Shown piece by piece: positions 11,609 through 64,000 of a stretch of 64,000 nucleotides of DNA. The position numbers and the translations under genes are program-made. Position 1 is the first letter of the stretch. Every line of letters starts with the position of its first letter. The DNA comes from Deltaproteobacteria bacterium (lineage in GTDB: Bacteria; Desulfobacterota; GWC2-55-46; UBA9637): NCBI GenBank assembly GCA_030690165.1, contig JAUYHF010000062.1, positions 1 to 64,000 on the forward strand. Reading direction: 5' to 3'. The notes beneath the pieces were generated by a model. That model was not told the DNA's origin. It was given only the letters and a program-made list of their open reading frames with translations, and did not search any database.

Positions 11609-12208
11609 ATGACATTGAAAAAAGAAGAAGTAGTAGTTCCAGCCAATTTAAAGGAAGACTTAAAGGCAGTGTTCACAAAAAAACAACCAGTTGTGTACAC
11701 GACATTTTGCATTAGCCAAAAAGCACACGATGCTATAAGAGAGCATGCGAAACTATCTGGCCTTAAGAACTCTGTAGTCTTTGATTTGTTATTAGCTGTT
11801 TTTAAGGTATGTGAAAAAAACCCTATCTCGTTGGTAACTGAAGAAAATAGAACCCTGATAAGAAAAACTTATGTTGTTGAAAAAAGGACACTACATAAGT
11901 TGGCAGAAATTGCCAAGGGCAAAAAAACATCTCGTGACAATATAATAGAACAGGCTGCTTTACAAATGAAGGCTCTTTTCCACAAATCTGAATCTGATAG
12001 GAAGGAAAAAGTTCAGAAAATATTTGATACGATATTAAATCCATTTTGGGATCAGGTATGTGACATAAAAGAAAAGTTGTGTGAAGAGTTGGGAGGAGAT
12101 GATCCGATATGTAACCGGTTTGGGTTAATAGTGTCTGCAGTAGATGGTTTTATACAGGATATAGAAGCCTATCTTACTAAAGGAACACCTATAAATCCTG
12201 ATTTTTAG
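11609..12208 (+). CDS. Unrecognised protein with two ribbon-helix-helix-like segments
   Basis: A 199-residue protein I cannot assign. Two segments have the look of ribbon-helix-helix or CopG-type units: one near residues 28-68 (Y-T-T-F-C-I-S then a helix with A-H-D-A-I-R-E-H-A and a second helix), and one near 88-125 (K-T-Y-V-V-E-K then T-L-H-K-L-A-E-I-A and D-N-I-I-E-Q-A-A). The C-terminal third is helical with several cysteines. It leads an AT-rich plus-strand operon inside a toxin-antitoxin strip, so a DNA-binding autoregulator or antitoxin role is a reasonable guess. Confidence 0.65.
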   Translation: MTLKKEEVVVPANLKEDLKAVFTKKQPVVYTTFCISQKAHDAIREHAKLSGLKNSVVFDLLLAVFKVCEKNPISLVTEENRTLIRKTYVVEKRTLHKLAEIAKGKKTSRDNIIEQAALQMKALFHKSESDRKEKVQKIFDTILNPFWDQVCDIKEKLCEELGGDDPICNRFGLIVSAVDGFIQDIEAYLTKGTPINPDF

Positions 12209-52707: not shown

Positions 52708-53873
52708 CCTAGTACCCTAACATTCCCACTCATCAGCTTTGGCAATAGCGTATCGCGCAGTTTAGTGAGAGTGCTGCTTTGGATTTGATTTGTAAATATT
52801 TTTTCAAACATTGGATTTACTTTATCATCAAATTCTTTTATCAAAGTATCCGGTGGCAGCACAATATCAATATTTAAAAAATCACCTGTATTCAAATTGT
52901 CTGTTGCTGTTCCTCCACTTGCCATTGCTAACAATTCATCTTTCATGCTTAACATGTTCAGATATAGAAAATACCTGTAAATCTCTTTTGCTGGAATGAT
53001 TGAATTAATCTGTTGGTTTGTCTGTGCAGTTTTGGCATTCATAATAACCAAGCCAACCGTTGCAATACAACTAACGCAAATAGATTTAGGTGGTAGTGTT
53101 TTGTTTGACTGCGATTTCAATCCCAATTCAGTTAAACTATCCTCACTATCAAAAACAAATGTATTTCCGTGCATATCAGGAATTTTTATAAATGGAATTT
53201 CTCCATCAAAGTAAGACGTAATTTTTTTTGATGGCGTTTTGCCACAAATGATTTTTCCTAACGTTCCAAGTTTCGTCACCTCCCAACTCTCCTCCGCCTC
53301 CTCCACAAACCACTGTCTGAAAAGCGTCTCCGCCAATGCCTCCAAGGTCTTGTTCTGGCGGTGCAGCAGGTCTATCTTGTCATCCAAACTGCTGAGGATT
53401 GAGGCGATGGATTTTTGTTCGGGGAGAGAAGGTAACTCTACTGAAATATGCTCAAAAGTTTCTCTTGTAATGGTATCGAAAACCGCACCATGTGTGTTAT
53501 TAAGCAAAGAGGAAACATTGTCTTTAACCAGATAATAGAGATAGTCATTAAATGTGAGGTTTTCTTTAGTCGTTAATCCATAGCAAGATTGATTAAAGGC
53601 CATATCTTTGCCTAAGACTGCAAGAGCCCCAACAGTTCCTCTTGCTGAAATAATTATTTGCCCCTTCTTTAAGAGTTTTGTGCTACTTTCTTGTAATCCC
53701 TTTTTAGTTATCTTCTTTTCTGTATCAAATACTAATTTTCTACCGTTGTTAAAATCTACTACAGAAAGCCAAGGTATATCGCCATCCCAATACTCAGTCA
53801 CAGTAGTCTTAGGCGTGCCACCGCCAATAATTTCCGCTATGTCGGCTAACTTATATTCCTTCCACTCACCCAT
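52704..53873 (-). CDS. hsdS: Type I restriction-modification specificity subunit
   Basis: A 389-residue DNA-recognition subunit. Two target-recognition domains follow each other: one begins W-K-E-Y-K-L-A-D-I-A-E-I-I-G-G-G-T-P, the other W-E-V-T-K-L-G-T-L-G-K-I-I-C-G-K-T-P. The spacer helices (P-S-L-P-E-Q-K-S-I-A-S-I-L, then L-E-A-L-A-E-T-L-F-R-Q-W) set the distance between half-sites. ATG at 53873 follows GAGG and overlaps the nuclease gene end by eight bases. A longer frame to 53897 lacks a ribosome site. Confidence 0.94.
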   Translation of the reverse strand: MGEWKEYKLADIAEIIGGGTPKTTVTEYWDGDIPWLSVVDFNNGRKLVFDTEKKITKKGLQESSTKLLKKGQIIISARGTVGALAVLGKDMAFNQSCYGLTTKENLTFNDYLYYLVKDNVSSLLNNTHGAVFDTITRETFEHISVELPSLPEQKSIASILSSLDDKIDLLHRQNKTLEALAETLFRQWFVEEAEESWEVTKLGTLGKIICGKTPSKKITSYFDGEIPFIKIPDMHGNTFVFDSEDSLTELGLKSQSNKTLPPKSICVSCIATVGLVIMNAKTAQTNQQINSIIPAKEIYRYFLYLNMLSMKDELLAMASGGTATDNLNTGDFLNIDIVLPPDTLIKEFDDKVNPMFEKIFTNQIQSSTLTKLRDTLLPKLMSGNVRVLG

Positions 53874-54921
53874 TACCATCTGCCTCTTCATCCACACTGT
53901 TTAAATTGAATGCTTGCAATTTTCGGGCAATGGTTTTTGCGTCTGGCAAAATGTTTTTATAGCTTGCCGGCAGGGCGGGGCTGATGCTGTAAGTTGACAC
54001 GCCAATAGGATGAACTGATTTCTTTAGGGCGTATTCCACAATGGTACGCTTTTTGTTTTTGCAGATAATAATACCAATGGAATCGTTTTCGCGGGGCAGC
54101 TTTATCTTGTCGTTCAGCAGATTAAGGTAAAACTCCATTTTGCCCTTGTATTCCGGCTTGAAATCTCCGATTTTAAGCTCTATGGCTACAAGGCATTGCA
54201 GCTCGCGATGATAAAGCAACAGGTCAATAAAAAAATCTTCCTCATCAACGGTAAGCCTGAACTGATTGCCGAGAAACGCAAAGCTATAGCCCATCTCACA
54301 AAGAAAGTTCCGGATATTTTTTATAAGCGCCTGTTCAAGCTGGTGTTCGGAGTGTTCGTCCGCCAGTTCCAGAAAATCAAAGGTGTAATGATCTTTTACC
54401 GCCAGCTTCGCCTGATGTCTAATGTTCTCAGGCACGGTCTTATCAAAATTTGTCTGATTCAGAAGATATTTTTCGTATGATTTGTTTTCTATTTGGTGTA
54501 TGAGGACATTTTTTGACCAGCCGAACTTTTTCGTTGCCATGATATAGAACTGCCGCTCATGAGCATCTTTGCATTTCTCGAAAATAAGGACATTGTGTGA
54601 CCATGCAATTTCTCGCACCAATGGTGCGAGTTTTGGCTTGTCGGCATACGTTTCATAAAATAATCTTGCCCTCCAAAGATTTGAAGACGAAAAACCGCCG
54701 ATACCGGGAAATTCTTCCTGCAGGTCCTTCGCCAATTGAATAACAACCGATTTTCCCCAGCCGGTCTTCTTCTGTTTCTCTACAATGGATTTGCCGATGT
54801 CCCAATATAATGCGATCAGTTCCTTATTGACCGCTTTTAATGCCTCGTATTGTGCAGAACGGATTCTTTGTTTAATATCTGACAATAACTCCGCATATCC
54901 GATGGGGGTTATATTACTCAT
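53866..54921 (-). CDS. PDDEXK nuclease-family protein (YhcG/DUF1016)
   Basis: A 351-residue protein with the DUF1016 layout: an N-terminal helical domain (I-A-L-Y-W-D-I-G-K-S-I-V-E-K-Q, G-F-S-S-S-N-L-W-R-A-R-L-F-Y) and a C-terminal nuclease-like domain with F-F-I-D-L-L-L-Y-H, L-V-A-I-E-L-K-I-G and F-K-P-E-Y-K-G-K-M-E-F-Y-L. The D-x-n-E-x-K residues are present, so it may be active. Such genes often ride in type I loci. It overlaps hsdM by four bases. Confidence 0.9.
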   Translation of the reverse strand: MSNITPIGYAELLSDIKQRIRSAQYEALKAVNKELIALYWDIGKSIVEKQKKTGWGKSVVIQLAKDLQEEFPGIGGFSSSNLWRARLFYETYADKPKLAPLVREIAWSHNVLIFEKCKDAHERQFYIMATKKFGWSKNVLIHQIENKSYEKYLLNQTNFDKTVPENIRHQAKLAVKDHYTFDFLELADEHSEHQLEQALIKNIRNFLCEMGYSFAFLGNQFRLTVDEEDFFIDLLLYHRELQCLVAIELKIGDFKPEYKGKMEFYLNLLNDKIKLPRENDSIGIIICKNKKRTIVEYALKKSVHPIGVSTYSISPALPASYKNILPDAKTIARKLQAFNLNSVDEEADGNG

Positions 54922-56549
54922 TTGCCCTCCAATCCCGTTTTAAGAGATAACGGGACAGGCTTAATTTTCGCAAGGTTTTCCTGTATTTTCTTGTTCAGCG
55001 CCGCTTCTTCGGCGATCTGTTTTTCCAATTCTGTTTTCAATGAAGTAAAACGTTCTTCAAAATTAAAATCATCTTCATCATCGGGCAAACCCACAAACCT
55101 GCCGGGTGTAACTACATAGTTCAATGCTTTTACTTCTTCAATACTTACGCTCTTGCAGAAACCCTGTATGTCCTCATATTCCTTCCCCTTGCCCCCTCCA
55201 GCGGGGGACAAACGCCAGTTGTGGTATGTGCTTGCCACCTTTGCAATATCCTCATCGGTAAATTCAAGGTTTTTTCGGGTCTTTAAAAAACCAAGGTTAC
55301 GGGCATCAATAAACAGCATTTGCCGTTTGCGATTTTGTTTGTTGCGTCTGAGAAACCAAAGGCAGGCAGGTATCTGCGTATTCAAAAATAATTTGGATGG
55401 CAGGTTGACGATGCAGTCTATCAAATCGTTTTCAACCATTGCCTTGCGTATTTCGCCTTCATTATTGGTCTTGGTTGTCAGCGAACCCTTTGCCAATACA
55501 AAGCCTGCCTGTCCTGTAGGCGCAAGATGATAAAGAAAGTGTTGTATCCATGCGTAATTTGCATTATTCGGCGGAGGTGGTAGTCTTTGTCCCAGCACGC
55601 TCCAGCGGGCGTCATTTTGAAGCCGGTCGCCGCTCCAATCGCTGTCATTAAACGGCGGGTTTGCGATGATATAATCTGCCTTCAGGTCTTTGTGTGCGTC
55701 ATTAAGAAAAGAGCCTTCGTTATTCCATTTCACATTACTGCTGTCTATATGGCGGATTGCGAGGTTCATCTTTGCCAATCGCCATGTAGTCTGGTTGCTT
55801 TCCTGCCCATAAATTGATATGCGGTCTGCCGGATTCAGGGATAATCCGTTGCGTTTTTTCTTGTAGTAATCACGGTGCGCCTCTACAAACTTCTCGCTCT
55901 GCACAAACATCCCGCCTGAGCCGCAGCATGGGTCAAATACCCTTCCTTCGTAAGGCTCAAGCATTTCAACAAGCAGTTTTACGACACTTCCCGGAGTGTA
56001 GAACTGCCCTCCCTTTTTTCCTTCAGCCAAGGCAAATTCACCAAGGAAGTATTCATAGACCTTACCGAGAACATCTTTGCTCCGCGCTTCCTTTGTCCCA
56101 ATCGCCGCACTGCCTATTAGGTCAATCAATCCGCCGAGGCTTGCCTTGTCCAACTTCTCTTGCGCATAAACCTTTGGCAAGACCCCTCTGAGCGAAGGAT
56201 TATCCTTTTCAATAGCATCCATTGCATTGTCAATATCTTTGCCAATGGTAGGAAGTTTTGCCCGCCCCTGCAACCAATCCCAGCGCGAAGAAGGTGGCAC
56301 GTAGAAAACCTTTTCAGCGGTATATTCGTTCTTGTCTTCGGGGTCAGCGCCTTCGCTTTTCTGTGTGGTGAGTTTTTGATAAAGTTCTTCAAAGGCGTCA
56401 GAGATATATTTCAGGAAGATCAAGCCCAATACAATGTGCTTGTATTCAGCCGCATCCATGTTCTTCCGCAGCTTGTCGGCCGACTTCCAGAGCTTCTTTT
56501 CTAACGGCTCTTCCTGTATCTCTTTTTTATCATTTTTGGTTCTTGCCAT
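54918..56549 (-). CDS. hsdM: Type I restriction-modification DNA methyltransferase subunit
   Basis: A 543-residue N6-adenine methyltransferase. The N-terminal helical domain (L-W-K-S-A-D-K-L-R-K-N-M-D-A-A-E-Y-K-H) precedes the SAM motif V-F-D-P-C-C-G-S-G-G-M-F and the catalytic N-P-P-F. G-G-Q-F-Y-T-P-G-S-V-V lies in front, as usual. It is the first gene of the eight-gene defence operon. I see no clear promoter in the short gap to uppP, so it could be read through from there. Confidence 0.95.
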   Translation of the reverse strand: MARTKNDKKEIQEEPLEKKLWKSADKLRKNMDAAEYKHIVLGLIFLKYISDAFEELYQKLTTQKSEGADPEDKNEYTAEKVFYVPPSSRWDWLQGRAKLPTIGKDIDNAMDAIEKDNPSLRGVLPKVYAQEKLDKASLGGLIDLIGSAAIGTKEARSKDVLGKVYEYFLGEFALAEGKKGGQFYTPGSVVKLLVEMLEPYEGRVFDPCCGSGGMFVQSEKFVEAHRDYYKKKRNGLSLNPADRISIYGQESNQTTWRLAKMNLAIRHIDSSNVKWNNEGSFLNDAHKDLKADYIIANPPFNDSDWSGDRLQNDARWSVLGQRLPPPPNNANYAWIQHFLYHLAPTGQAGFVLAKGSLTTKTNNEGEIRKAMVENDLIDCIVNLPSKLFLNTQIPACLWFLRRNKQNRKRQMLFIDARNLGFLKTRKNLEFTDEDIAKVASTYHNWRLSPAGGGKGKEYEDIQGFCKSVSIEEVKALNYVVTPGRFVGLPDDEDDFNFEERFTSLKTELEKQIAEEAALNKKIQENLAKIKPVPLSLKTGLEGK

Positions 56550-57557: not shown

Positions 57558-58223
57558 TTAATACTTCGACACATTCACCTCTTCCATCTTCCCTGTAGCC
57601 ATAAAAACCACCCTCTCCGCAATGTTTGTTACCCTGTCTGCTATCCTTTCCAGGTTATGGGCAAGCCAGATGAGATATGTTGCGCCTTCAATCTTTTTGG
57701 GATTCTCTATCATAAGGAGGAGGAGTTCTCTGTATATCTGGTCATAAAGGGCGTCAACCTCATCATCCTCATCGCATATAGCCCTGGCTGTCTTTGCGTC
57801 GCGGTTTATAAATGCCTTAAGAACCCTGTCCAGCATGGACAAGCCCTTCTCGGACATCCGTGGGACATCTATGAGCGGTTTTACGAGGGGTTCGCTTCCT
57901 ATCAATAAATTTATCTTTGCATTTCCCTCCGCGTGGTCGCCGATTCTCTCAAGGTCTGTAATGATGCTCAATATGGCGGCGATTGTCCTTAAGTCAATTG
58001 CCATTGGCTGCTGGGTTGCAATCATATGAAGGCATCTTTCTTCTATCTCAAACCTTTTTTTGTTTATCAAAAGGTCGTTCTTTATAATCTCCTTTGACAT
58101 CTCAAAGTCCCTTTTTTTCAATGCCTCTATGGAGTCTTTAATTGCCTTTGCCACCATCTCACCCATTACCATGAGTTCATTCTCAAGTTCTTCTAATGCC
58201 TTATGATATGCCACTCTGGTCAT
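57558..58223 (-). CDS. phoU: Phosphate transport system regulator PhoU
   Basis: A 221-residue protein of two three-helix bundles that links the Pst transporter to the PhoR-PhoB sensor. The metal-binding E-x-x-x-D-x-x-x-D-type helices are seen (I-E-E-R-C-L-H-M-I-A-T-Q-Q-P-M-A-I-D-L-R, D-L-E-R-I-G-D-H-A, and the second-half N-L-E-R-I-A-D-R-V-T-N-I-A-E). The length is normal. It is the last gene of the pst operon. Confidence 0.95.
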   Translation of the reverse strand: MTRVAYHKALEELENELMVMGEMVAKAIKDSIEALKKRDFEMSKEIIKNDLLINKKRFEIEERCLHMIATQQPMAIDLRTIAAILSIITDLERIGDHAEGNAKINLLIGSEPLVKPLIDVPRMSEKGLSMLDRVLKAFINRDAKTARAICDEDDEVDALYDQIYRELLLLMIENPKKIEGATYLIWLAHNLERIADRVTNIAERVVFMATGKMEEVNVSKY

Positions 58224-58306: not shown

Positions 58307-59065
58307 TTATCCAAACCTTCCTGTTATATAATCCTCCGTCATCTTATTTGACGGCGCTGTAAATATCTTCTTTGTAATATCAAATTCATGGAGCTTACCC
58401 ATCATGAAAAAACCTGTGTAATCCGACACCCTTGCGGCCTGCTGCATGTTGTGGGTGACTACGATAACCGTATATTCGTTTTTCAATTCTGTTATTAAAT
58501 CCTCTATCTTTGCTGTTGCAATGGGGTCAAGGGCTGAGCAGGGTTCATCCATGAGGATAACCTCAGGCTCAACGGCTATGGCTCTGGCAATGCAGAGCCT
58601 CTGCTGCTGGCCGCCTGATAAAGAAAGCGCAGAATGAGGAAGCCTGTCTTTTACCTCATCCCAGATAGCAGCCTTCTTTAAGCTTGATTCAACAATCCCG
58701 TCAAGCCTGCTTTTATTTTTTATCCCCTGTATCCTCAGGCCGTACGCCGTATTTTCGTAGATGCTCTTGGGAAATGGATTGGGCTTCTGAAATACCATGC
58801 CGACACGTCTTCTTATGTCTATGACATCCATTTCCTTTGAATATATATCTATGCCATTAAATTTTATTTTTCCTTCAATTCTGAATACCGGGATAAGGTC
58901 ATTCATCCTGTTCAGGCATCTTATAAATGTGCTCTTGCCGCAGCCTGAAGGACCTATAACAGCAGTAACGGCTTTGGGGGATATTCCCATGTTCACATTA
59001 TCCAATGCCAGTTTGTCGCCGTAGAATACATTTACATTTTCTATCTTAAAAGCGCTATTATCCAT
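58307..59065 (-). CDS. pstB: Phosphate ABC transporter ATP-binding protein
   Basis: A 252-residue ATPase. G-P-S-G-C-G-K-S-T is Walker [17 protein letters not shown] the signature, [12 protein letters not shown] Walker B, and T-H-N-M-Q-Q-A-A-R the switch. [13 protein letters not shown] is a PstB hallmark. It starts one base after pstA. Confidence 0.97.
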
Positions 59066-59066
59066 G

Positions 59067-59975
59067 TTACCACCTTATTTTCTTTTGATACTTCTGCCTC
59101 AGATATATGGCAAAGGCATTCATTACAAATGTAATAACGAGAAGCACAATTATAGCTGCCGCCGCATCTATTGCAAAGCCTTTTTGAGGCCGCGACACCC
59201 AGTTGAATATCTGGATGGGCAGGACGGTAAATGCGTCAAATAGCCCCTGAAAACTTATATAAGGAAAATCTGATGATATGGGACTCGCCGGTAAAAAGGC
59301 AATATAGGTCAGGGCGCCCATTGTTATAAGCGGCGCTGTCTCGCCCACTGCCCTTGACATTGCAAGGATTACCCCTGTCAGGATGCCCGGCATCGCAGAA
59401 GGCAAAACCTGATTTCTTATGGTCTGCCATTTGCTGGCGCCAAGGGCATAAGATGCCTCTCTTATGGACGGCGGTATTGATTTAATCGCCTCCCTTGTTG
59501 AAAGTATCACAATTGGAAGAACAAGTATTGCAAGGGTCATTGCCCCGGCTATTACGCTGCGCTCCATATTTAAAAATCTTACAAACAGCCCAAGCCCAAG
59601 CAGCCCATAAATAATAGAAGGCACGCCCGCAAGGTTTGCGATATTTATCTCTATTATGTCTGTGAGCCAGTTTTTTCTGGAATATTCTTCAAGATATATT
59701 GCCGCTGACACGCCGAGGGGGAATGCAATGCCGCCTGTCAGAACCATAATCCAGACCGTCCCAACCCATGCAGAGAGTATCCCTGCCTCTTCAGGTTTTC
59801 TTGAAGGATAATTGGCAAGGAACTGCCAGCCCAGCCTTCCCATGCCGTCTGCGAGTATATCCAGCAAAAGCGCCAGAAGGAAAATAAGGCTTATAGATGT
59901 GGCAAAAATACCTATGAGCAGAAATGCTTTGTCGTAAAGTCTGTTTATAAATTTTCTGTCCATGGATTTACTCAT
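59067..59975 (-). CDS. pstA: Phosphate ABC transporter permease PstA
   Basis: A 302-residue inner-membrane permease with six helices. The EAA loop is [32 protein letters not shown] is the PstA-type motif. The ATG overlaps the pstC stop by eight bases. Confidence 0.95.
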
Positions 59976-60861
59976 ACTCTTCCCTGAACCTCTTCTTCAA
60001 CCAATAGCTCACTATATTCAAAACGAATGTTACGATAAAAAGACTCATGCCTGCCGCAAATATTGTGGAGTATTCAATCGTCCCTGTTGGCGTATCGCCA
60101 AGGCTAACCTGAACAATGTAGGCTGTTACTGTTTCTATTGGCACAAGTGGATTCAGTGTCAGCCGCGGCTGCTGGCCTGCTGCGATTGCCACAATCATTG
60201 TCTCGCCCACTGCCCTTGATATGCCAAGTATAAATGATGATGCTATGCCTGAAAGCGCCGCAGGCAGGACAACCTTTAATGCGACCTGAAACTTTGTTGA
60301 GCCAAGGGCAAGCGCCCCTTCCCTCAGGCTCATTGGCACAGCATGCATTGCATCTTCGCTTAAGGATGATATAATCGGTATTATCATGATGCCCATCACG
60401 ATTCCAGGCGCAAGGGAATTAAAGCCGGACATATCAGGGATAAGTATCTGAAGCAAAGGAGTTACAAAAAGCAGGGCAAAATAACCATATACAACTGTTG
60501 GCACTGCCGCAAGCACCTCAAGTATCGGTTTCACAACCCCCCTTAGCTTTTCAGGCGCGTGTTCGCTTAAATAAATTGCGGTGATAACGCCGAGAGGCAG
60601 GGATACTGCCATTGCAATAATTGTTGTCAGGAATGTCCCTGCAAAAAGGGGAAGGATGCCGAAGTGTTTCTCGGAAAAAAGAGGAGTCCACTGTGTGTCT
60701 GTCAGAAAGTCAAAAATGGATACCACCTTAAAGAACTCAAATGTCTCAAATATCAGAACACCTACTATTCCGATTGTTATAAAAACAGAAAACAAGGCGC
60801 TCAAAAAGAGCGCCTTCTCAATAAACCATTCTTTTATCTTCTGAAGCCTGCGATAGCCCAA
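59968..60861 (-). CDS. pstC: Phosphate ABC transporter permease PstC
   Basis: A 297-residue partner permease. P-L-G-V-I-T-A-I-Y-L-S-E-H-A, the loop M-S-L-R-E-G-A-L-A-L-G-S-T-K-F-Q-V and I-S-R-A-V-G-E-T-M-I-V are PstC-type. An N-terminal membrane segment near residues 15-40 comes before the core. It lies three bases after pstS. Confidence 0.95.
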   Translation of the reverse strand: MGYRRLQKIKEWFIEKALFLSALFSVFITIGIVGVLIFETFEFFKVVSIFDFLTDTQWTPLFSEKHFGILPLFAGTFLTTIIAMAVSLPLGVITAIYLSEHAPEKLRGVVKPILEVLAAVPTVVYGYFALLFVTPLLQILIPDMSGFNSLAPGIVMGIMIIPIISSLSEDAMHAVPMSLREGALALGSTKFQVALKVVLPAALSGIASSFILGISRAVGETMIVAIAAGQQPRLTLNPLVPIETVTAYIVQVSLGDTPTGTIEYSTIFAAGMSLFIVTFVLNIVSYWLKKRFREEYE

Positions 60862-60864
60862 TAC

Positions 60865-61869
60865 CTATTGTCCTTCCTTTTGCAGTAAATCCTCTATCTT
60901 TACGCCGACTGCAGCGCCATGACCGCCGAACACAGAACCTGCCAGCCTCTTTTCAAATCTGCTCAATCCGAGGGTGTACGCCTTTTCAGGGAGCGCTATG
61001 TAACCAACCTCTTTTGAAAGCTCTGCGCCTTTTGTCATATAAAACGAGATAAACCTCTGAACCTCTGATTTTTCAGCAGATTTTTTATTCACATAGATAA
61101 ATATTGGCCTTGCAAGCGGCTGATATGTGCCTTTCAACACATTCTCGTATTCAGGAAGCACAGGGCCTTTGCCGTTTGAATCGTTCTCATCATCTACTGG
61201 CACAAGTTTTAATCTGTCTTTGTTATGCTCATAATACGCCACACCAAAGAATCCTAATCCCAGGGTATCTGTGGCTATCCCCTGCACAAGAACATTGTCA
61301 TCTTCGCTGGCTGTAAAATCACCCCTGCTTGCCCCACCCTTGCCGTTTATCGCCTCTGTAAAATAATCAAATGTCCCTGAATCCACGCCGGGACCAAACA
61401 GGTGTATCTCTTTATCAGGCCAGTTGGGCCTTATCTGTCTCCACTTTGTTATCTTTCTCTGAGCCGCCGGTTCCCATATCTTTTTTAACTCTTTTACGGT
61501 CATGTAGTCAACCCAATTGTTCTTTGGATTGACCATAACAGCAAGACCATCATACGCAACAGGGAGTTCTATATATTCTATTTTATTCTTTTTACAGAGA
61601 AGAACCTCTGAAGGCTTTATCGGCCTTGAGGCATCGCTTATATCTGTCTCGCCATTGCAAAACTTCTTAAAACCGCCGCCTGTGCCGGATATGCCTACGG
61701 TTATCTTTGTCTTCCCCTTCTCTACCTTCTGGAACTCCTCTGCAACCGCCTCGGTTATGGGATAGACTGTGGAAGAACCGTCCATCTTAATCACGGCAGC
61801 GGCATATATCTGCGGAGCTATAAACATCGCAAACATAATTACCGTTAAAAGTATTGTTACCCCTTTCAT
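60865..61869 (-). CDS. pstS: Periplasmic phosphate-binding protein
   Basis: A 334-residue binding protein with a signal peptide (cleavage about residue 23). [13 protein letters not shown] at the mature start and D-S-G-T-F-D-Y-F form the phosphate site, and I-S-D-A-S-R-P-I is the family D-A-S-R motif. The size fits the longer PstS type found outside the enterics. A segment with three hairpins separates it from the porin gene upstream. Confidence 0.94.
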
Positions 61870-61933
61870 ATATTCCTCCTTAATTGGTTTTTTTTATATC
61901 ATATCCGTTAAAAAATATCCTCTACAAAAGGAG

Positions 61934-62011
61934 CGGAGGGGTGAATAACACCCCTCCGATGAAGAAGACCCGTGTAGCAGCACGGGCTTTCCCGGAGGGC
62001 AGCGCCTCCGG
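61934..62011 (-). promoter_or_regulatory. Three hairpins between the porin and pstS
   Basis: The stems are CGGAGGGGTG/CACCCCTCCG (61934-61958), CCCGTG/CACGGG (61969-61986) and CCGGAGG/CCTCCGG (61992-62011). The first in particular could act as a partial terminator or an mRNA end block, leaving more porin message than pst message. No long T-run follows on the minus strand. Confidence 0.6.
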
Positions 62012-62017
62012 AAACTG

Positions 62018-63235
62018 TTAGAAGTAGAGCTGTCCCTGGAGCTGATACACATCCTTCTTGTCATCATTTGCAAGCCAGCCGCTGGCATTCTTATCATACT
62101 TTGTGCTGGCCCAGTTTAATCCGACCTTAAAGCTGTGCCCCTTTGCATACCAGTTGACCCCGATGGTAGTGGTCTTTTCCATCTTATCGCTTGAGTTGGA
62201 ATCCTGGTCATATACCTCATATCGGGCTATCGGCTCAATATTCAATCCGGATACAAAGTAGCCTGCCTGACCATACCACCCTTCTGGTTTTTCCTCTTTC
62301 TTATTAGGGTCTGTGTACTTTTGGTTCCATATATTATACTCAAACTGCGCTATTATGCCGTTCCAGTGGCCGGACACATCAAACCCTGTGAGGGTTCTGT
62401 CTTCCTCATAGACATTCGCAATGGTATTGTCAGCAGAATACTCTATGCCCTTTTGAGCAGCATAGTTTGCCGCAAGCGTAAGATGCTGTCCCTGCCCAAG
62501 CCATGCATCGCTCTTGCCCTTTTCTGTCCAGCCGGGAGGTGAGAGCTCAATCCTTGCCACATACAGAGGCCCGCCATTGAATACCTTTGTGTCTGCCGAG
62601 TCTGTGGTGCGGTATTTGCCCTTTGAATAAAGCGTGTTGCCGTTTTCCCAACCATCTGCAATAGCAAGGTTGTAATTAAATATGCCTTCGGCAATGCCGC
62701 CATGAAGCAATAGAGATGGTTGATAATAGTCGTCAAAGAGCTTTTTAGCCGCCTCTGTTGACACAGGCCGCTCTATAATAAGCTGCTTTGAAGATGATGT
62801 GAGAGAGACCCTTGAATAAGGAAGCTTTGTCTTGCCGAATCTTATATTAAAGGCATCAACGAACTTATAGTCAAGATATGCATACTGTATCTTCACTTCA
62901 TTTGCAGCAGATGCGCTTGTCTTGCCTGCCTTGCCATTTTTATCCCCTTCAATTATCAGGCTGTATTTTAGGTCTTTTGCCAATTTACCTTCAAACTCCA
63001 GACGGATTCTCCTTAAATACATATCCATATCAGATGAGTAGGATTTTCCGTCTTTGCTTTTTATAATGTCTCCAAAATCAATCCTCGGCTGGAGACGTAT
63101 TCTCATGGTTATATCTGTGTCATCGCTTATCTTTACCTTCAATCCCTTTGTCTCCTCACCCATTGAAAAATCCTGGGCAAGCGCCTGTGTTGCCACCAGC
63201 AGGAATAGCGCCAGTATTAGCAGTAATTTCTTCAT
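62018..63235 (-). CDS. Phosphate-selective porin (OprO/OprP family)
   Basis: A 405-residue outer-membrane barrel from ATG at 63235, seven to eight bases after GGAGG; the frame extends to 63322 without a ribosome site. A signal peptide ends near A-L-A-Q-D. Seen: R-I-R-L-Q-P-R-I-D-F, Y-L-R-R-I-R-L-E-F-E-G-K-L, and a C-terminal L-Q-G-Q-L-Y-F, typical for the final strand. The pst genes downstream and the Pho box upstream support phosphate as substrate. Confidence 0.9.
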   Translation of the reverse strand: MKKLLLILALFLLVATQALAQDFSMGEETKGLKVKISDDTDITMRIRLQPRIDFGDIIKSKDGKSYSSDMDMYLRRIRLEFEGKLAKDLKYSLIIEGDKNGKAGKTSASAANEVKIQYAYLDYKFVDAFNIRFGKTKLPYSRVSLTSSSKQLIIERPVSTEAAKKLFDDYYQPSLLLHGGIAEGIFNYNLAIADGWENGNTLYSKGKYRTTDSADTKVFNGGPLYVARIELSPPGWTEKGKSDAWLGQGQHLTLAANYAAQKGIEYSADNTIANVYEEDRTLTGFDVSGHWNGIIAQFEYNIWNQKYTDPNKKEEKPEGWYGQAGYFVSGLNIEPIARYEVYDQDSNSSDKMEKTTTIGVNWYAKGHSFKVGLNWASTKYDKNASGWLANDDKKDVYQLQGQLYF

Positions 63236-63263: not shown

Positions 63264-63620
63264 TTATTCAAGTAAATCTTTGTGTTTCTTCTCATACTCC
63301 TTCTGGGCAAAGCTGGATTCAAATATCACGGTCTCGCCGTTCGGGCCAAAACCTATGCCTGTAACAGGGCTTTTGCCGCTCTTACCTGCCTTTTCGAATT
63401 CCTCTTTTGCCTTTGGAGAGATAAAGACATAAATCCTGCCTTGCTTTTCTATCTCATAATAGGCATTGGCCTTTACCTTCCCTGATTTCAGCTTACCGCC
63501 GTCCAGCTTAAAATATTCTACTGTTGGCTCTGCCGGCATATTGACCGTCTGGGTAGCAGCGCAAGCTGCAATGCCTATCACAAAAAATAAGCACAAAATC
63601 CTTTCTGCCAATCTATTCAT
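63264..63620 (-). CDS. Small lipoprotein in the phosphate operon
   Basis: A 118-residue protein from ATG at 63620, about eleven bases after GGAGG. The frame is open to 63692, but the signal peptide begins at M-N-R-L-A-E-R-I-L. Lipobox: I-A-A-C. The mature part has two repeated strand-loop features (Y-F-K-L-D-G-G, Y-E-I-E-K-Q-G-R-I-Y-V-F) and a charged C-terminus. I know no family. It lies 28 bases ahead of the porin gene. Confidence 0.7.
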   Translation of the reverse strand: MNRLAERILCLFFVIGIAACAATQTVNMPAEPTVEYFKLDGGKLKSGKVKANAYYEIEKQGRIYVFISPKAKEEFEKAGKSGKSPVTGIGFGPNGETVIFESSFAQKEYEKKHKDLLE

Positions 63621-63672: not shown

Positions 63673-63873
63673 CTACCTGCTGCAAATCGCACCTGCCCTT
63701 ACCGCCTCTTCCCTATACCAGTTTCTTAATGTATGGGCCAGCAGCATAGGACAGCGGTAGTGATCTTCTGTTGTGCAGTATACAATTGCCTCAAAGGTAC
63801 TCGGCGCCATAAGTGTTAATGACGCATTACAGATACCGCTTTTCTTTCCTGCTTCTAAATATGGACATTCCAT
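63673..63873 (-). CDS. Small cysteine-containing protein, Pho-regulated
   Basis: A 66-residue soluble protein with five cysteines (residues 3, 15, 33, 41, 64), including M-E-C-P-Y-L-E and Y-C-T-T-E-D-H-Y-R-C-P-M-L-L. The spacing suggests metal binding, but no family is certain. ATG at 63873 has AAAGGAGG just upstream. It is the first gene behind the Pho-box promoter, which makes it a phosphate-starvation gene. Its stop lies 52 bases before the lipoprotein start. Confidence 0.7.
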   Translation of the reverse strand: MECPYLEAGKKSGICNASLTLMAPSTFEAIVYCTTEDHYRCPMLLAHTLRNWYREEAVRAGAICSR

Positions 63874-63910
63874 ATTCGCTACCTCCTTTTTTTATTTTTT
63901 TGTTACAAAA

Positions 63911-63944
63911 AATATATCCAACTTATGTGACAGGATTATGACGG
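63911..63944 (-). promoter_or_regulatory. PhoB-activated promoter (Pho box and -10)
   Basis: On the minus strand, CCGTCAT and CTGTCAC are separated by AATC (63944-63927), matching the Pho box of two CTGTCAT units four bases apart. Ten bases later lies TATATT (63916-63911), where the -10 of PhoB-dependent promoters sits. It should drive the 66-residue protein, the lipoprotein, the porin and pstSCAB-phoU. Confidence 0.85.
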
Positions 63945-63949
63945 AGGTG

Positions 63950-64000
63950 TTAAATCTTTATTACACCCTTCATGCCTTCTTTTTTCAAAAAGTTTATCAA
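63950..64000 (-). CDS. 3-prime end of an unidentified gene (partial)
   Basis: The last residues of a minus-strand gene (L-I-N-F-L-K-K-E-G-M-K-G-V-I-K-I, TAA at 63952-63950). The fragment is too short for a name. The stop lies next to the Pho box, so this gene ends right before the phosphate operon. Confidence 0.5.
   Translation of the reverse strand: MINFLKKEGMKGVIKI

Follow-up and report, generated by a model that had tools for sequence, protein, structure and literature searches.

The window, the 64,000-nucleotide stretch of DNA analysed here, carries a set of phosphate-uptake genes on its minus strand. According to the list of open reading frames, these run in the order cysteine gene, lipoprotein gene, porin, pstS, pstC, pstA, pstB and phoU. 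The first gene (63673..63873) encodes a 66-aa protein with five cysteines, and the second (63264..63620) a 118-aa lipoprotein in which the lipobox IAAC, with the cysteine at C20, was recognised by eye. The third encodes an outer-membrane porin (62018..63235) that matched the Pfam family Porin_O_P (PF07396, E 3.7e-34) at 119 bits and so passes the gathering score of 20.9. Downstream of it are pstS (60865..61869; PstS-family, NCBIfam TIGR02136), pstC (59968..60861), pstA (59067..59975), pstB (58307..59065; NCBIfam TIGR00972, above cut-off) and phoU (57558..58223). The open reading frames that we take to be pstC, pstA and phoU were named from family features together with the conserved gene order. 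Three hairpins in a row fill the stretch between the porin gene and pstS (61870..62017, minus strand; z -4.65 compared to shuffles), and these perhaps help, by transcript processing or by attenuation, to keep porin levels above those of the pst genes. Elsewhere on the same strand (53866-56549), two genes resemble by eye a DUF1016-type nuclease and the M subunit of a type I restriction-modification system. Ahead of the cysteine gene is the 3' part of a stand-alone REC gene (63936..64000, minus strand; stop codon at 63936-63938), which continues past the window (whole gene, L008 3937-4344) and was assigned to PF00072 by a Pfam scan (E 6e-28). On the same contig beyond the window (locus L008), the REC gene is followed by phoR and phoB (L008 4519-6230, named by eye) and then by a divergent ileS.

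A Pho box, CCGTCATAATCCTGTCAC (63927..63944, minus strand), extends over the final 9 nt of the REC gene and matches 13 of the 14 scored positions of the E. coli-type consensus. The sequence further shows a -10-like hexamer, TATATT (63911..63916), 10 nt past the box, and a Shine-Dalgarno sequence, GGAGG (63882..63886), 8 nt ahead of the ATG of the cysteine gene, both on the minus strand. On the other side of the box, a further half-site, TTTAACA (63948..63954, minus strand), keeps to the 11-bp spacing of the Pho-box repeat. About 15 of 20 upstream regions inspected by eye carry TTAAC or TATAAC at this position. Sites as good as CCGTCATAATCCTGTCAC arose at a rate of 0.05 per sequence in 20 simulated 64-kb sequences. 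When the 2,208,012-base genome was searched for the pattern CYGTCAYNNNNCTGTCAY with up to one mismatch, the Pho box was the sole match and had no mismatches. Since the same pattern read backwards gave two genome matches at up to one mismatch, the box is supported by how exactly it fits and by its location rather than by the number of matches. A matrix derived from relatives placed weaker sites upstream of the REC gene (L008 4448-4465, score 17.6) and of phoB (L008 6260-6277, score 15.3), which are suggestive at most because unrelated sites in the window score up to 13.9. Taken together, the sequence evidence confirms a Pho-box operon in the window, predicted to belong to the Pho regulon. The initial annotation, which had placed a near-perfect Pho box and a -10 element ahead of both small genes, the porin and pstSCAB-phoU, was right in each of these placements; its wider interpretation is partly supported, with the Pho operon borne out.

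The locus shares with the known Pho-regulon operon pstSCAB-phoU the 7-4-7 direct repeat, the -10 hexamer 10 nt further on and the grouping of phoB, phoR, pst, phoU and porin genes. It differs in that the first gene encodes an unclassified four-cysteine protein, in that a stand-alone REC gene is inserted between phoR and the operon, and in the third half-site upstream of the box.

To follow the Pho box across copies of the cysteine gene, we tallied 51 family members and set aside seven that are linked to rimO and three variant proteins, leaving 41 copies in 33 genomes. A box was called when a site within 180 bp upstream outscored 99% of Markov-simulated 200-mers. By this measure a Pho box was found upstream of 36 of the 41 copies (32 of 33 genomes), in 34 cases at a distance of 40-74 bp. 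The limit had been set at 150 bp (35/41) and was raised to 180 bp after a box was seen at 172 bp in G001. The score is partly circular, as the matrix was trained on 13 boxes that themselves precede genes of this set. When 26 loci were scanned with only the E. coli consensus (at least 12 of 14 positions), seven had a site immediately before the gene. The internal control was clean, with a box in none of the seven rimO-linked paralogues and none of the three variants. The copies without a box were G330 L112, G329 L113, G329 L117, G346 L129 and G343 L135. The tally lacks the main copies in three genomes, G179, G318 and G327; their boxes score 16.8, 24.4 and 28.4, respectively, and a hand count that adds them gives a box for 39 of 44 copies. 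The rimO-linked paralogue itself was observed directly ahead of rimO at seven loci (L031 11349-11528, and in G179, G312, G313, G332, G333 and G334).

The gene following the cysteine gene was a porin in 14 copies, pstS of one of two types in eight, phoB in five, an unassigned ORF and then pstS in three, and the lipoprotein gene in one, together 31 of the 41; two of the 14 porins, those of G338 and G343, are distant (24-25% identity). The gene order that recurs in the class is a Pho-box cysteine gene before porin, pstS or phoB. Within 6.5 kb of the cysteine gene, phoB was present for 20 of the 41 copies, pstS for 29 and a REC gene for 17, and in 13 a REC gene was directly upstream, one of these being a longer REC-containing best match. 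Six copies with a box depart from the recurrent order (G310 L106, G310 L107, G312, G332, G311 and G324 L130). Among these, G310 L106 has pstS within 6.5 kb; G310 L107 has a weak box (9.2) and no pst, phoB or REC gene within 6.5 kb; in G312 pstS is convergent with the cysteine gene; in G332 a REC gene precedes it and there is no pstS within 6.5 kb; and in G311 the contig ends beside it. A copy from another class (G068 L033) has a box at 12137-12154, just upstream of the gene start at 12083, and lies ~7 kb from the pst genes. This and the other boxed copies remote from pst indicate that the cysteine gene can own a Pho box away from pst. Outside the class, three of the four copies found by single-sequence search are just downstream of a gene whose product, 351-528 aa long, contains REC (L034, L035 and L038), and the two of these products that were scanned carry REC, HisKA and HATPase_c; the fourth copy, L033, has no directly adjoining REC gene. 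Near two of these copies a gene for a ~1,030-aa protein that resembles a metal-transport ATPase by eye was also noted (L034 746-3835 and L035 335-3418). A PsiE-family gene (PF06146) is located ahead of the REC and cysteine genes in G005 (L010 991-1446), and relatives of it are placed likewise in G001 and G320.

The cysteine gene was matched in 38 of 63 genomes of the class and in 6 of the 8 genomes of its own family (in G335 it was recovered as two partial matches). In all six family genomes the next pst gene is close downstream on the same strand, and a REC gene directly precedes the cysteine gene in G000, G001, G005 and G006, the G006 contig stopping within pstS. G003, of the same genus and 99% complete, gave no match to the cysteine protein or the lipoprotein and was counted neither way, because its pst contig breaks off inside a porin piece of 70% identity. 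In a sample of the phylum, 9 of 297 genomes were matched by the single sequence and 17 of 297 by the profile, part of the latter weakly; several of these weak matches (e.g. L067 and L070) were unconvincing when read. Within the class, 19 of the 53 genomes that carry pstB lacked a cysteine-family match (21 of 53 if G126, with a weak match, and G313, with the rimO-linked paralogue only, are excluded), so the cysteine protein is not needed for Pst. The cysteine gene and its predicted Pho box are thus conserved far more widely than the window alone could reveal.

In the 66-aa protein, the cysteines C3, C15, C33 and C41 are invariant among 18 aligned members, as are S18, P24, H38 and P42, and the four-cysteine pattern is present in 38 of the 41 counted copies. 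The initial annotation had described a five-cysteine protein; the window copy does have five, and the fifth, C64, is not conserved in the family. The pN/pS of the gene is 0.07-0.35 across eight pairs. These comparisons show that the predicted 66-aa frame is a conserved protein under selection. Searches of Pfam and NCBIfam with the protein returned no family at E up to 10; its 13 relatives reached a best Pfam E of 0.018, each family appearing in only one or two members, and these matches were dismissed as being at chance level. A description of the protein was not found in the titles and abstract openings listed by searches of the open-licence PMC literature. AlphaFold2 with 18 sequences gave a model of moderate quality (pLDDT 80.2, pTM 0.57) with helices at residues 26-33, 36-40 and 42-64, the other four models having pLDDT values of 77.5, 60.5, 59.6 and 56.8. 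No PDB entry was matched at E up to 10, either by profile or by Foldseek with the moderately confident model as query. The four conserved cysteines fit a putative four-cysteine metal-binding protein, and by eye the protein carries no export signal. Among its looser relatives are short proteins as well as fusions in which a similar four-cysteine motif, in tandem copies, is joined to a glycine-cleavage-H domain (PF01597), at L068 907-1824 and L069 763-1671, both on the minus strand.

The lipoprotein has a much narrower distribution, being found in 1 of 62 genomes of the class and, in another class, in three genomes that belong to a single distant genus. Its gene directly precedes a porin gene in G000, G068 and G131, while the G103 contig ends at this point; the linked porins of G068 and G131 are 60-62% identical to the window porin. 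In contrast, no match to the lipoprotein was found in 14 genomes of the class that carry a related porin. In a tree of 20 porins (three of them distant) sampled from 26 loci, the 14 related porins from class genomes lacking the lipoprotein grouped together with a support of 97/100, excluding the porins of G000, G068 and G131, and the latter three formed one clade in just 32% of bootstrap trees. As pstS comes right after the cysteine gene in G002 and G007, the lipoprotein-porin pair was either gained here or lost there. Residues 48-83 of the lipoprotein weakly resemble the YHS domain (PF04945; E 6.1e-4, 20.2 bits, below the 30.3-bit cut-off); the matched stretch is without cysteine, and none of the three relatives of the lipoprotein gave this match. 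Matches to WD40-type PDB entries were low-complexity hits of ~20 residues on repeat propellers and were rejected, and a single-sequence AlphaFold2 model (pLDDT 50.8) was too poor for use. The proposal that the lipoprotein is the partner of the porin fits its position directly before the porin in three genomes, but the 14 genomes with a related porin and no lipoprotein show the very absence that the initial annotation had named as refuting, and so refute an obligatory partner; for the cysteine gene this absence was not observed. By sequence, the lipoprotein is a predicted optional companion of one porin type.

How, then, are the two small proteins best explained? Both might be accessories of phosphate uptake over two membranes, with the lipoprotein as the partner of the porin, as was originally proposed. 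The adjacency of lipoprotein and porin genes in three genomes and the separate grouping of the 14 lipoprotein-free porins are in keeping with this, but the lipoprotein occurs in a single class genome, the porins linked to it form one clade in a minority of the bootstrap trees, and the cysteine protein appears to lack an export signal and often has no porin adjoining, its gene being followed without an intervening porin by pstS in 8 of 41 copies and by phoB in five. We consider a shared uptake role distinctly unlikely, and for the cysteine protein the claim is not supported. Its suggested function as a sensor or metal handler fared better, as this is compatible with the conserved cysteines. It is barely credible that the 66-aa reading frame serves as a leader or arose by chance, with no function as a protein: it is short and first in the transcript, yet it has pN/pS values of 0.07-0.35 in eight pairs, the four-cysteine pattern in 38 of 41 copies and a Shine-Dalgarno sequence of its own.

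In the main rival reading, the cysteine protein is a thiol handler that deals with arsenite or some soft metal in the cytosol and is produced each time Pst is induced, since Pst also admits arsenate. Genes like arsC, acr3, arsR or aquaporin genes lie within 6.5 kb of the cysteine gene in 15 of 33 genomes, and in two of them, G005 (L010 4748-6066) and G001 (L011 1223-2409), genes that by eye resemble aquaporin and arsC genes are located between pstS and pstC. Linkage of Pst and ars genes is known elsewhere (PMC3834237). However, three of the 15 genomes have the aquaporin-like gene only, and 18 of the 33, the window's among them, have none of these genes nearby. Adjacency of Pst and ars genes is also known without a protein of this kind. 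Moreover, H38 together with the four cysteines would resemble a structural metal site. We regard the thiol handler as unlikely. Quite unlikely, too, is a protein that binds nucleic acid in the manner of a zinc finger, with Pho transcripts or DNA as its target, and works without the REC protein. The four cysteines and the helices in the AlphaFold2 model would suit such a protein, as would its small size, its position at the head of the transcript and the paralogue ahead of rimO at seven loci. Nevertheless, no zinc finger was matched by Pfam, PDB profile or Foldseek, and the conserved stretch TE[ED]HYRCP is, by eye, not strongly basic.

By its sequence and surroundings, the cysteine protein seems more likely to regulate the phosphate response than to be part of the uptake machinery. 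A precedent for a mini-protein that tunes PhoR is provided by small DUF1127 proteins, which are reported to bind PhoR and keep pst expression down (PMC12501420). These are likewise very small and act on pst expression; they are described there as positively charged and often <50 aa, whereas the window protein has four conserved cysteines and gave no Pfam match to the DUF1127 domain. A signalling role is preferred because of the REC neighbours, the REC-HisKA-HATPase_c proteins outside the class and the place of the gene before phoB at five loci; counting against it, only 13 of 41 copies have a REC gene immediately before them, and L033 has none adjoining. Upon phosphate starvation, PhoR would phosphorylate PhoB, which would bind the predicted box, and synthesis of the operon's products would begin with the cysteine protein. 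This would stay in the cytosol, where C3, C15, C33 and C41 may hold a metal, most likely Zn, with Fe-S being possible; it would bind the REC protein, PhoR or PhoB, so that metal or redox state tunes how strong the response is or how it is shut off. We infer the metal and the partner, and the step from neighbourhood to binding is likewise our inference. The lipoprotein-porin pair would be an optional insertion between the cysteine gene and pstS, the lipoprotein probably aiding the porin in the periplasm. We put forward tentatively, at somewhat less than even confidence, this reading as a whole, in which a cytosolic metal-binding cysteine protein of the Pho regulon tunes REC, PhoR or PhoB and an optional lipoprotein assists the porin.

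Few stress responses of bacteria have been studied as well as the Pho regulon, yet the gene most regularly first behind a Pho box in this lineage encodes a protein outside Pfam and NCBIfam. This protein is conserved, unclassified and predicted to belong to the Pho regulon, and it most likely binds metal and tunes the phosphate response. It is possible, if doubtful, that a family of PhoB-induced four-cysteine mini-proteins relays a metal, redox or arsenite signal via a stand-alone receiver and PhoR/PhoB; if so, metal status and phosphate uptake would be linked in at least two bacterial classes. If the cysteine protein does tune PhoR, PhoB or the REC protein, it would show that these uncultured, partly groundwater-derived bacteria match their uptake of phosphate (and arsenate) to metal or redox state.
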